The position numbers and the translations under genes are program-made. Shown piece by piece: positions 49,650-52,878 of a stretch of 64,000 nt of DNA (position 1 is the stretch's first letter; the number at the start of each line of letters is the position of its first letter). Under the pieces are notes generated by a model, which had not been told where the DNA came from, did not search any database, and saw only the letters and a list, made by a program, of their open reading frames with translations. Source of the DNA: Nocardia ninae NBRC 108245 (GTDB taxonomy: Bacteria > Actinomycetota > Actinomycetes > Mycobacteriales > Mycobacteriaceae); assembly GCF_007990755.1 (NCBI RefSeq), contig NZ_BJXA01000001.1:310001-374000 (forward strand). Reading direction: 5' to 3'.

Positions 49650-49776
49650 CTCAGGTCAAGAGCGCCAGCGTCAAGTCCCCGGCTAGCTGGCCGGCAACCC
49701 TCCAACCGCGGCGGGGTGCCCCGGGTCAAGACCAGGCCGAGCCGCGTAATGCGGTCCGGGCAAGCGCGGGCTCCGT
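49650..49776 (+). ncRNA. SAM-IV riboswitch
   Basis: The segment carries the SAM-IV core almost to the letter: GGTCAAGAGCGCCAGCG, then CAAGTCCCCGGCT, GCTGGCCGGCAACCCTCC, CCGCGGCGGGGTGCCCCGGG and TCAAGACCAGG, followed by a CCGCGTAATGCGG stem and the terminal GGCAAGCGCGGG. GGTC (49654-49657) pairs with GACC (49730-49733) to close P1; GCCAGC (49664-49669) pairs with GCTGGC (49686-49691). SAM-IV aptamers are actinobacterial and normally turn off methionine and sulfur genes when S-adenosylmethionine is plentiful. The 3' end overlaps a possible alternative hairpin, and the regulated genes begin 40 bp later. Confidence 0.88.
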
Positions 49777-49801
49777 CGGTGTGCTGGAGCCCTCTCGAGA
49801 G
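49768..49801 (+). promoter_or_regulatory. Possible riboswitch expression platform
   Basis: GGGCTCC (49768-49774), shared with the aptamer's 3' end, can pair with GGAGCCC (49786-49792); the palindrome CTCTCGAGAG (49792-49801) follows. No U-run is present, so control of translation or Rho access is more likely than intrinsic termination. Confidence 0.5.
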
Positions 49802-49815
49802 ACGGGGGTCGACTC

Positions 49816-49893
49816 ATGTCCGAAACGCCCTCCCTTCTCATGCCCGGGCCTGTGCCCGGTCCATCGAGCGACAACCAGAGGGGAACGACATGA
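49816..49893 (+). CDS. 25-codon leader ORF between riboswitch and operon
   Basis: An ATG at 49816, behind ACGGGGGTC, opens a 25-residue reading frame beginning MSETPSLLMPGP and ending DNQRGTT. Its stop overlaps the oxygenase start (ATGA at 49890-49893), the same coupling used between the later genes. It may be a regulatory leader that carries ribosomes from the riboswitch-controlled site into the operon. A product role for the peptide is possible but unsupported. Confidence 0.5.
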   Translation: MSETPSLLMPGPVPGPSSDNQRGTT

Positions 49894-50696
49894 CCACGGC
49901 CACGCCAACTCTCGGAGACCGCGTGCTGGACACCACCAGGCAGGGATTCGACCACGAATCACTGACCGCACTGCTGAACGGCGACGTGCACGCGGTGCGA
50001 CTCGCCGGCTTCGTCCGGCCGGACGCGCTCGACCACCTGCGCAAGGCCTTCGTCGGCAGGCAGGACCACGGTCCGCTCGCCACCGACCCGCAGTTCCGGC
50101 GGATCGGGCACGCGTTCTCGGAGACGAGCACCGACGCCGGGCGCGGGCGGTACTTCGACGAGGCGCGCGATAATATCGATCGGCTGCGCGATATCGCCTC
50201 GCCGTATTCGTATCCCGCGGACGACCTGCGGCTGCTGCTCGACGAGATCTGGCCGGCCGGAGCGAGTTTGCTGCGGCGCAATGGACAGGCCTTCTTCGCC
50301 GGCGTTGCGCGCTACCAGCTGGCGGGGGTGGATCTGGAGCCGCACACCGACAATGTGGGCCGCAACCTGCCGTCGGACTTCGATATTCGGATCACTCGGC
50401 AACTGTCTGTGAATGTCTATTTGGACGTGCCGGAGCGGGGTGGCGAATTACAGATCTGGGACGACTATCCCGATGAGCGCGAATATCGCGACCGATCCGG
50501 CGACCGCGTCTACGGCATCGACCGCGCCGCGGTCGGCGATCCGGCGCTGGTCATCACACCGCGCGTGGGCGACGCGATCTTCATCGATCCGCGCCGGGTG
50601 CACGCGGTCGCGCCTTCCCAGGACCGCCCCCGCATCACCATCGGCCTCTTCATCGGAGTCACCGATCCGGCCGAGTCGCTGAAGGTGTGGAGCTGA
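49890..50696 (+). CDS. 2-oxoglutarate/Fe(II)-dependent oxygenase
   Basis: A 268-residue dioxygenase with the iron triad H152-x-D154 (EPHTDNVG) and H238 (RRVHAVAP), and R248 as the likely 2-oxoglutarate anchor (PRITIGLF). The double-stranded beta-helix core runs from about 135 to 255. It should hydroxylate, desaturate or otherwise oxidise a small substrate. As the CDPS partner, it probably tailors the cyclodipeptide or an amino acid. AGAGGGGAACGAC precedes the ATG. Its stop shares a base with the CDPS start. Confidence 0.87.
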
Positions 50697-51418
50697 TGAC
50701 CACGACTACGTTGCTCTCGGCGTCGCACAAGGCCGCCTACGACCTACGCTCGGACGGCATCACCACCGACGGCCGCTCCACCGTCCTGCTGGTCAGCGTC
50801 GGCGCGGACTATCACGAGGGTGAAAAGCTCGCCGCGACCATCGATTTGATCAATCGCTCGAACTTCGGGCGCTGCGCGATCGCCGTCGCGGACACCTTGC
50901 AGCGACACAACCTCAGCGGCGGCACCGATAGAGACCGGCACGCTCGTGCGCGCATCGCCGGCGACCAGTGGATCGCCCGCAACCAGAGCTATCTGGACCA
51001 GATCGACTGCCCGACAAACATTCTGCGCTGGGACTTCGCGCTATCCCATCCCCGCTACGGCGATCTCTACGACGCCATCGAGCACGCCTACGAGACCGAC
51101 GAGCCGTATCGGCATGCCATCGACAGCACCATCGATAGATTCATCGAGCGGCGGCTGGCGCGCGAACCAGACGTCGACCAGGAGGCGGTCCGGACCTCCT
51201 GCCGTGCATATCTTTTGGAGGAATGCCCGATCATCATGCCGCTGTGGGCGCACGAGGGGTTCGACTTCGTGATCTACCCGCAGCGCATCTCCGCCGCGAT
51301 GGGGCGCACCCGGGAACTGTTCGTCGAACCCGAGCATCCGGACCGCGTCGCTTGGCTCCCTTTGCGATTCAAGAAGCGCAAGTCGGCGCTGAACTCCGCG
51401 GCGGAGGGGCAGCTGTGA
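50696..51418 (+). CDS. tRNA-dependent cyclodipeptide synthase (CDPS)
   Basis: A 240-residue protein, the same size as AlbC. The catalytic Ser aligns with S34 in [16 protein letters not shown]172 and E176 ([10 protein letters not shown]) match AlbC Tyr178 and Glu182, and Y194 (FVIYPQ) matches Tyr202. The HUP-fold order is also right: [20 protein letters not shown], a basic stretch [12 protein letters not shown] for tRNA contact, and NILRWDF. CDPS enzymes join two aminoacyl-tRNAs into a diketopiperazine. The substrates cannot be read from sequence; SAM control hints at a methionine link. It is coupled to genes on both sides by overlaps. Confidence 0.82.
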
Positions 51419-52821
51419 CCCTCGAGATCCCGGCCCAGCGGCGCGTCATCGGGTTCGGCGGACTGGCGGTGGCGTCGTTCCTCGGGTGCATCGACCTCAC
51501 CATCGTCACCACCGCGCTGCCCGCCATCGGGGCCGACTTACACGCGGGCACGTCGAACACCGAACTGACCCTCGGTGTTTTCCTGATGGCGCTGTCCATG
51601 TTCATGGTCACGGCGGGGCGCGTCGCCGATCACCTCGGACGCCGAAAGGTGTTGCTGTTCGGGCTCGCCCTGTTCGTGGTCGCGTCGGCGGGGGCGGCGG
51701 CTGCCTCGTCGATCGGCATCCTGCTCGTTGCGCGCTTCATCCAAGGCGCGGCGTGTGCTGTGCTCTACACGAGTACCTCGACGCTGGTGGAATCGCTGTT
51801 CCCGCCGGGTGATCGAGGCAAAGCCATCGGTTGGCTGTACTCGGTGAACGGTCTGGGGTTGGCCATCGGTCCGGTGCTCGGCGGTCTGCTGGTGCCCAGT
51901 CTCGGGTGGCAGTCGATCTTCTGGATCAACATTCCGCTCGGCATCGCGGCTCTTGTCGCGATTGCCTTCGCGGTCCCCCACGTGCCGCCGGACACCGCGG
52001 GCGGCACGGACTGGGCCGGGCAGGTCGTTGTCGCGTTCGCCGTGGTGTCGGCCGTCGGCATCTTCGTCCTGGGCGACCTGCGGGGATGGCTTTCACCCTG
52101 GGTCCTCATCGCCGCGGTCGTCCTGGTGGTCTCGGTCGCGGTGGGTGTCGTCGCGGAGCGGCGGGCGGCGAATCCCTTGATCGACCCGGCACTGTTCGGC
52201 AAGCGGAGATTCGTCGCCGCGATCGTCTCGGATTTCTCGCTCGGGCTGTTCTATGCCGCTGCGCTGCTGGTGATTCCGACGTACCTCACCCAGGGACGCG
52301 ACTTCGACGTGCGCCAAGCGGGATTCGTGCTGCTGCTCGTCAGCGGCACGCTCGCGCTCGCGTCGCCGGTCGCAGGGCGGTTCGTTGATCGGTTCGGCGC
52401 ACATGCGTTGCTGCCGTGGGGGTTCGGGCTGTTGACCCTTGCCGGAGCGGGCATCGCCTGGTCCGCGTTCGGTGATCTACTGGCGGTGCTCTTCGTCGCA
52501 CTGGTGTTGTTCGGCGCAGGATGGGCCTTGGTGCTGGGACCCGCGACCGTGCTGGCTATTTCCACGGTGCCGCCGAATCGATCCGGCTTCGCCGTGGGTG
52601 CTTCGTGGACGTTCCACAACCTCGGCGGGGCTATCGGGGCGGCGGTGGCGACCGTCGTCTTCGGGCAGATCGGTGTCTCGACCGGCGACGCGACGGGACG
52701 GGTGGCTTCGATCATCGCGACAACCAGCCTGATCGCGGCGGTCCTGGTGGTGGTCCTCACCGCTGGGCGGGCCGAGAAGGTGGCGATTGACCAGCCGGTG
52801 CCCGTGGAGGCAGCCACGTAG
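51415..52821 (+). CDS. MFS transporter, DHA2 (14-TMS) family
   Basis: A 468-residue exporter. The opening [19 protein letters not shown] is the DHA2 motif D1-like signature, [12 protein letters not shown] the loop 2-3 motif, and [14 protein letters not shown] motif C of antiporters. About 14 helices are visible. It starts with GTG overlapping the CDPS stop (GTGA). By position it exports the operon's product or protects against it. A strong hairpin follows. Confidence 0.88.
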
Positions 52822-52878
52822 TTTCGATGCGGCAGTTCTCGCCGACGTGCGAGAACTGCCGCAATACTCCGAAACTAC
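52818..52878 (+). terminator. Nested inverted repeat terminating the CDPS operon
   Basis: An inner perfect 13-bp stem, GCGGCAGTTCTCG (52829-52841) with CGAGAACTGCCGC (52850-52862), is enclosed by GTAGTTTCG (52818-52826) and CGAAACTAC (52870-52878). The MFS stop codon lies in the outer arm. Confidence 0.8.

Follow-up and report, generated by a model that had tools for sequence, protein, structure and literature searches.

A SAM-IV riboswitch ahead of a cyclodipeptide synthase operon in Nocardia ninae and its probable connection with sulfur shortage

Results and discussion

A SAM-IV aptamer precedes a three-gene operon

We analysed a stretch of 64,000 bp from Nocardia ninae NBRC 108245 (G000:C1:310001-374000, where G000 is the genome of 9.7 Mb to which it belongs), hereafter called the window. 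It contains an aptamer of the S-adenosylmethionine (SAM) riboswitch class SAM-IV, followed on the same strand by the genes of a 2-oxoglutarate/Fe(II)-dependent (2OG/Fe(II)) oxygenase, a cyclodipeptide synthase (CDPS) and an exporter of the major facilitator superfamily (MFS), and orthologous operons in other Actinobacteria are mostly preceded by a SAM riboswitch as well. The explanation that we favour, and that we hold to be rather probable, is that SAM represses this operon, that the operon is on in sulfur or methionine shortage, and that it exports an oxidised cyclo(Ala-Glu) which serves organosulfur acquisition.

The aptamer (49654..49772, + strand) matched the Rfam model RF00634 end to end (model positions 1-116) with 100.6 bits (E 2.9e-17; gathering score 38), and this was the sole Rfam match at or above the gathering score within the window. 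The covariance search thus bears out the initial annotation, which had been made from the letters alone and placed the aptamer near the SAM-IV consensus. The class is marked by two pseudoknots, PK-1 and PK-2, as described in the section of the source used here (PMC6890682). Complementary strands for both were read by eye in the window (CCCGG/CCGGG and CCGCG/CGCGG, respectively), so that both pseudoknots are possible. This RNA is predicted to bind SAM and to control the operon.

Regarding the genes, the oxygenase (49890..50696), the CDPS (50696..51418) and the MFS exporter (51415..52821) all lie on the + strand, and their closest named orthologues are from Nocardia. The stop codon of the oxygenase gene overlaps the start of the CDPS gene (TGATG) and that of the CDPS gene overlaps the start of the MFS gene (GTGA). 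Together with the profile matches given below, these overlaps agree with the operon as it had been annotated initially.

The SAM riboswitch is conserved at orthologous operons

We surveyed 150 genomes of the window's genus with the CDPS profile and a search of the neighbouring genes, and found 13 copies of the oxygenase-CDPS-MFS operon. SAM-IV precedes 11 of them, one of these in a decayed form. The other two are N. carnea, which has a riboswitch of the SAM-I class instead (60.7 bits), and the genome G131, in which none was found even at E 5. A scan of named genomes gave 45 related CDPS loci: 37 with oxygenase, CDPS and MFS genes (15 actinobacterial, 20 from Pseudomonas and 2 from Burkholderiales), 5 from Photorhabdus with CDPS and MFS genes but a different 2OG oxygenase, and 3 with the CDPS only. 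A further search, which covered 401 genomes of the family, yielded two more copies from the Gordonia genus (G449 and G481) and one more from the genus of Mycolicibacterium neoaurum (G509).

Counting each actinobacterial copy once, there are 23, and 19 of them carry a SAM riboswitch: 11 have SAM-IV and 8 have SAM-I, whereas 4 have none on their own strand. The link with SAM riboswitches is conserved across these copies. SAM-I (S-box, RF00162), which is not the class at the window's operon, stands at the same operon in five genomes of the Gordonia genus, two of the M. neoaurum genus and N. carnea. In the CDPS tree, the SAM-I copies fell within one group of ten (support 97/96) that also included two copies without a riboswitch, and the SAM-IV copies formed another group with a support of 94/93, which is below the mark for strong support. 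This tree carries long-branch warnings; the G131 copy (L046) is included in it and that of N. panacis (L056) is left out.

Some of these loci deserve a separate comment. In N. vermiculata (L086, 4920-5150) a leader of the N. carnea type is partly kept and no SAM-I aptamer was found in it, as if it had been lost. In N. panacis (L056, 5189-5957) the oxygenase gene matches in two frames and there is no riboswitch at the gathering score, so this operon may be decaying. In the Photorhabdus loci (L061-L065) the place of the oxygenase beside the CDPS-MFS pair is taken by a non-orthologous 2OG oxygenase (PF03171); dipeptide transporter genes adjoin, and an OPT-family gene follows the MFS gene (the families were scanned in L061 and L099, and homologues were present in 5/5).

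The association is specific to this operon

The 23 genomes with a CDPS-profile hit contained 86 SAM-IV matches. Going by their contigs and positions, no match was near any of the 16 other intact CDPS loci in the same genomes; this count left out two fragmentary CDPS hits (G003 and G111), neither of which was on a contig with a SAM-IV match. The window's own genome has two further CDPS genes (G000:C16:5023-5682 and G000:C3:270560-271216), both on contigs without SAM-IV. Close to the operons of N. carnea and N. vermiculata there is a SAM-IV that faces the opposite way, toward a class V aminotransferase gene.

SAM-I is a stronger test of specificity than SAM-IV. Each of the eight genomes with a SAM-I copy has one SAM-I match only, and this is the one at the CDPS operon. 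With stricter filters, the Gordonia genus had SAM-I in 8 of 59 genomes and the M. neoaurum genus in 3 of 396; the CDPS operon accounts for 5 and 2 of these, respectively. All 13 other SAM-I loci inspected adjoin parts of one organosulfur-type operon: 3/3 in Gordonia, 1/1 in mycobacteria and 9 of the 10 best loci in Nocardia, the tenth being a CDPS operon. The Nocardia inspection covered these best 10 loci and the window genome's own, with about 80 further matches lying outside it.

Three further SAM-IV leaders are present in the window's genome and all of them stand ahead of sulfur genes: an O-acetylhomoserine sulfhydrylase (842.2 bits, cut-off 703), a weakly rhodanese-like gene with an O-succinylhomoserine sulfhydrylase (651, cut-off 618) and a SufS-like cysteine desulfurase (289.9 bits, below its cut-off of 475.1). 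According to the passages of published work used here, examples of SAM-IV riboswitches precede genes for O-acetylhomoserine sulfhydrylase, class V aminotransferase and cysteine desulfurase (PMC3774663, PMC8269248, PMC8079986). The window's SAM-IV is like these other actinobacterial ones in its full aptamer with both pseudoknots possible, but it heads a pathway of the natural-product type built on a CDPS, with 117 nt between the end of the aptamer and the start codon of the oxygenase gene. The tie to methionine, SAM or sulfur depletion suggested initially was right in direction and is strongly supported by the comparison.

The encoded enzymes and their predicted product

The CDPS belongs to the XYP subfamily and scored above the cut-offs of PF16715 (34.3 bits, cut-off 27) and TIGR04539 (52.3, cut-off 45). 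Its orthologue in Nocardia brasiliensis is Nbra-CDPS (PDB 5MLQ), which it matches across residues 2-239 of 240 with 503 bits, and it shares 92% identity with the CDPS encoded in two N. brasiliensis genomes. In the published passages available to us, Nbra-CDPS forms cyclo(L-Ala-L-Glu) from Ala-tRNA and Glu-tRNA (PMC13062777, PMC12945691), its catalytic residues are S34, Y172 and Y194, and V35, G36, Q69 and N72 are given as the specificity residues for cyclo(Ala-Glu) formation, with L32 in the P1 pocket (PMC13062777). All of these residues, catalytic and specificity ones alike, are invariant in the 13 aligned CDPS sequences, the window's included, and so the catalytic residues are intact as first annotated. 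The predicted product of the window's CDPS is cyclo(L-Ala-L-Glu). Despite this likeness, Nbra-CDPS is in print an enzymology model, and its operon, riboswitch and biological role go unmentioned in the same passages (PMC13062777, PMC12945691).

The idea that Met-tRNA might be a substrate is unsupported, because the CDPS is a close orthologue of an enzyme that uses Ala-tRNA and Glu-tRNA. We regard it as extremely improbable that the CDPS makes a methionine-containing diketopiperazine whose precursor supply is reported by the SAM level: no point in its favour was found, and both the orthology and the invariance of V35, G36, Q69, N72 and L32 speak against it.

The oxygenase scored above the cut-offs of PF13640 (36.6 bits, cut-off 27) and of the WelO5 family PF22814 (39.3, cut-off 27). 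Its structure model (pLDDT 89.1) best matched WelO5 chains, with TM-scores of 0.70-0.78, so that the fold is shared with these 2OG/Fe(II) enzymes, although the identity to WelO5-type enzymes is 17-19%. The facial triad H152-x-D154...H238, whose metal-ligand roles were assigned by alignment to WelO5, is invariant in 29/29 oxygenase sequences. In contrast with the native-type WelO5 chain, which has the Gly of halogenases at this position, D154 aligns with the Asp of the G166D variant 5IQU. Therefore hydroxylation or desaturation is to be expected rather than halogenation, and the enzyme is expected to be a hydroxylase or a desaturase. The MFS protein matched PF07690 (194 bits) and its best NCBIfam model was EmrB/DHA2 (TIGR00711) with 195.7 bits, below the cut-off of 230.2; hence we call it DHA2/EmrB-like.

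The leader and the end of the operon

The aptamer is nearly invariant across the aligned leaders, whereas the leader 3' of it varies. Just 5' of the aptamer there is a conserved block, CGATTCTAAAGCGTGACA (49606..49623, + strand), which was kept in 10 of the 11 aligned Nocardia leaders and is missing from the rearranged one of N. colli. It may be a promoter element, with GTGACA as a candidate -35 box; a sigma-70 scan found no promoter. The PK-2 strand of the aptamer runs into a hairpin (49768..49792, +; GGGCTCC/GGAGCCC), in which 100% of the cells were paired in 10 leaders. At one of its pairs U-G, U-A and C-G alternate, and the covariation was not significant (334 of 500 shuffles were as high). 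A second hairpin, CCGGGC-CTGT-GCCCGG (49844..49859, +), had 98.3% of the cells paired in the same 10 leaders. Both are candidate stems of the expression platform. The Shine-Dalgarno-like AGAGGGG of the oxygenase gene (49877..49883, +) was read directly and is invariant in the 10 leaders.

SAM riboswitches of this clan usually turn genes off upon SAM binding, and an off-switch would be the likely behaviour here too. Part of the literature on Streptomyces clavuligerus describes a SAM-IV leader that yields a premature transcription unit (PMC8269248). By analogy, early transcription termination is plausible for the window's leader.

Concerning the other end of the operon, a very stable nested hairpin (52817..52879, +; -42.1 kcal/mol, z -8.67) closes it, and none of 200 shuffles was equally stable. 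It is terminator-like, but a T-run is absent and it was not among the hits of the terminator scan. The strong terminator that had been proposed is thus a strong hairpin only. Further 3' (52930-55013) the window contains a sugar-porter MFS gene and an ASCH-domain gene; among the 12 other loci of the genus, the sugar porter is at the same place only in N. suismassiliense and N. colli.

Neighbouring genes in relatives

In the CDPS clade that bears SAM-I, an importer made up of a binding protein, permeases and an ATPase adjoins 8 of the 9 loci inspected, G131 being the exception; this count leaves out G481. The closest homologue of the importer's binding protein in the window's genome (49% identity, G000:C29:75662-77206) is some 5 kb downstream of the one SAM-I match that this genome gave, on the same strand, and its neighbours are genes of a cystine-type ATP-binding cassette (ABC) transporter, of GNAT and of the flavin mononucleotide (FMN) monooxygenase type. 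The whole locus (L130, G000:C29:64500-83500) is led by SAM-I and contains a cystine-type ABC transporter, GNAT, luciferase-like/FMN monooxygenases and a TIGR04028-like binding protein. Judged by its genes, it is an organosulfur-use operon.

Operons for organosulfur use with a cystine-type ABC transporter, GNAT and FMN monooxygenase are of the Bacillus ytm/yxe type. They share with the CDPS operons of this bacterial family the importer family and the control by SAM-I, but no protein scanned in L130 was a CDPS. At the Gordonia and Mycolicibacterium copies, none of the TIGR03860 (FMN monooxygenase) matches listed was less than 40 kb from the CDPS. In Williamsia there is a luciferase-like gene near the operon, on the other strand.

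The gene order in Pseudomonas protegens is amine oxidase, Rid, TonB receptor, SsuA-family binding protein, oxygenase, CDPS, MFS and FMN monooxygenase. There, the SsuA-family protein scored 214.8 bits (cut-off 163.5), its top PDB chain being the aliphatic sulfonate-binding protein 2X26, and the FMN monooxygenase scored 537.9 bits (cut-off 279.7). The counts for the other Pseudomonas loci are based on similarity to these P. protegens proteins, which were themselves tested for their families. The SsuA-type gene is present at 19 of the 20 loci and the FMN monooxygenase at 16. The TonB receptor is present at 19 too, the contig of the remaining locus breaking off before it would be reached. A TonB receptor was also found at one Burkholderia locus. 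After its two best PDB chains, which are considered below, the P. protegens monooxygenase matched YtnJ/MoxC, DszA and DmoA, and lower down EDTA monooxygenase; YtnJ/MoxC is a further likeness to the organosulfur-use operons. Thus, the initial statement that the genes are not sulfur genes is literally true of the operon itself, but the importers and FMN monooxygenases beside its relatives are related to organosulfur-use genes.

We also noted, 5' of the Rid, TonB, SsuA and CDPS genes of P. protegens (L100, 4091-7457), a membrane dipeptidase (M19) and the amine oxidase, which are possible product-processing enzymes. A strict hand-made scan found no sigma-54 sites on the plus strand at 15 of the 20 Pseudomonas loci.

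A role in sulfur acquisition and its alternatives

According to the explanation that we favour, the SAM-IV aptamer of the leader RNA would bind SAM when it is plentiful and keep the operon off, and transcription or translation would go ahead when SAM is scarce, that is, in methionine or sulfur shortage. The CDPS would then couple Ala-tRNA and Glu-tRNA to cyclo(L-Ala-L-Glu), the oxygenase would hydroxylate or desaturate it and the MFS protein would export the oxidised product. Outside the cell, this compound would most likely aid the acquisition of sulfur from organosulfur compounds, and it would be taken up again by transporters of the kind that adjoin the operon in relatives. We prefer this role because the regulation, the kinship of the importer and the Pseudomonas neighbours all agree with it.

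Several observations weigh against it. No sulfur chemistry is encoded by the oxygenase, CDPS or MFS genes themselves, and no importer adjoins the window's own copy or that of G131. Four of the 23 actinobacterial copies (G131, N. panacis, N. vermiculata and Williamsia) have no riboswitch on their own strand, and the SAM-IV of N. colli is decayed (62.7 bits), with its 5' half replaced and a deletion in the leader. In the 11 proteobacterial loci scanned, of the 30 found, there was no riboswitch at the gathering score, and therefore the sulfur link in these bacteria rests on the neighbouring genes. When free and SAM-constrained foldings of the 10 leaders were compared, no consistent change in the exposure of the Shine-Dalgarno sequence was seen. 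Finally, the importer also resembles the NikA/CntA metal systems, both in profiles and in PDB entries, and the top two PDB chains for the monooxygenase of Pseudomonas carry the name nitrilotriacetate monooxygenase, an enzyme for a chelator. As an observation apart, the N. colli leader (L038, about 10990-11210) has lost the normal 5' half of the aptamer and its deletion reaches the start of the oxygenase gene, a case of natural riboswitch decay.

The resemblances of the importer and of the monooxygenase give some room to a SAM-controlled metallophore, in which the exported oxidised cyclo(Ala-Glu) would bind nickel, cobalt or zinc and be re-imported by Nik/Cnt-type ABC transporters or TonB receptors, low SAM being the sign of a failing metal-dependent methionine synthesis. 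The importer ATPase of Gordonia malaquae is above the NikE cut-off (351.3 vs 332.55), the importer to which it belongs matches nickel and staphylopine families, TonB receptors occur in Pseudomonas and at the Burkholderia locus, EDTA monooxygenase is among the PDB matches, and an MFS exporter with an importer is the layout of opine metallophores. However, the G. malaquae binding protein and permeases are below their Nik cut-offs, and this binding protein scored higher with TIGR04028 (289.6 bits) than with NikA (166.7 bits), neither score reaching its cut-off. Furthermore, within the window's genome the importer is most closely related to a protein of the SAM-I-led locus L130, which also has genes for cystine-type ABC, GNAT and FMN monooxygenase, the SsuA-family neighbour is above its cut-off and cyclo(Ala-Glu) offers, on chemical reasoning, few metal ligands. 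On balance we judge a metallophore unlikely.

Another explanation, to which we give a small but real chance, is an antibiotic or antimetabolite used in sulfur or methionine shortage and made by a reduced pathway of the bicyclomycin type, with the MFS protein for self-resistance. The bicyclomycin genes also comprise a CDPS, a 2OG oxygenase and an MFS exporter, the MFS protein is an efflux-type DHA2-like one, and the window's copy lacks an adjoining importer. Nevertheless, the window's operon has a single tailoring enzyme, and the importers of the SAM-I clade together with the SsuA and TonB genes in Pseudomonas favour uptake. Its predicted CDPS substrates and its SAM riboswitch are further differences from the bicyclomycin pathway. 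Much less can be said for the riboswitch as a hitchhiker or relic, which would have remained when the operon inserted behind the leader of a methionine gene and would exert no control. The decayed riboswitch and the four missing ones among the 23 copies would fit it, but orthologous operons from separate parts of the CDPS tree have riboswitches of two classes, few or no other SAM-I occur in the Gordonia and M. neoaurum genera, and the aptamer is nearly invariant beside a variable leader. We consider it very improbable.

Returning to sulfur acquisition, a more specific version can be sketched, which is quite speculative and which we consider unlikely. The exported compound might be a "thiophore", which would do for sulfur what a siderophore does for iron: when SAM is depleted, an electrophilic oxidised cyclo(Ala-Glu), for instance a dehydro-diketopiperazine, would trap external thiols as S-adducts. 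These would be taken up by peptide/organosulfur-type ABC importers in Actinobacteria, or by the TonB receptor and the SsuA-family protein in Pseudomonas, and FMN monooxygenases of the YtnJ/DszA/DmoA family would cut the C-S bond and free the sulfur.

Conclusions

Every part of this system belongs to a known family. Our searches of the open-licence literature did not turn up a CDPS operon paired with a SAM riboswitch, the repeated occurrence of this pairing under two riboswitch classes, or its sulfur context. Nor did they yield a report that connects a CDPS to a SAM riboswitch or to sulfur starvation, in keeping with the novelty suggested in the initial annotation. A 2014 review, in the part available, names TonB receptors, ABC transporters and MFS transporters as neighbours of CDPS genes in general (PMC4159871), and a paper on the M. 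mucogenicum and M. neoaurum clades mentions CDPS genes and riboswitches in separate passages of the portion used (PMC6582537). Dipeptide, nickel and MFS transporter all went unmatched in the available portion of a Gordonia sulfur-source transcriptome paper.

Nbra-CDPS serves as a model enzyme in structural work, and the published passages state no biological role for its product (PMC13062777, PMC12945691). Two classes of SAM riboswitch and sulfur-type neighbours in unrelated bacteria now point to a testable one, in sulfur or methionine shortage. If this is true, SAM riboswitches would extend from sulfur housekeeping genes to an exported diketopiperazine, and those who work on natural products would learn the condition under which to look for the compound. 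It could also reveal a secreted small molecule for sulfur capture.

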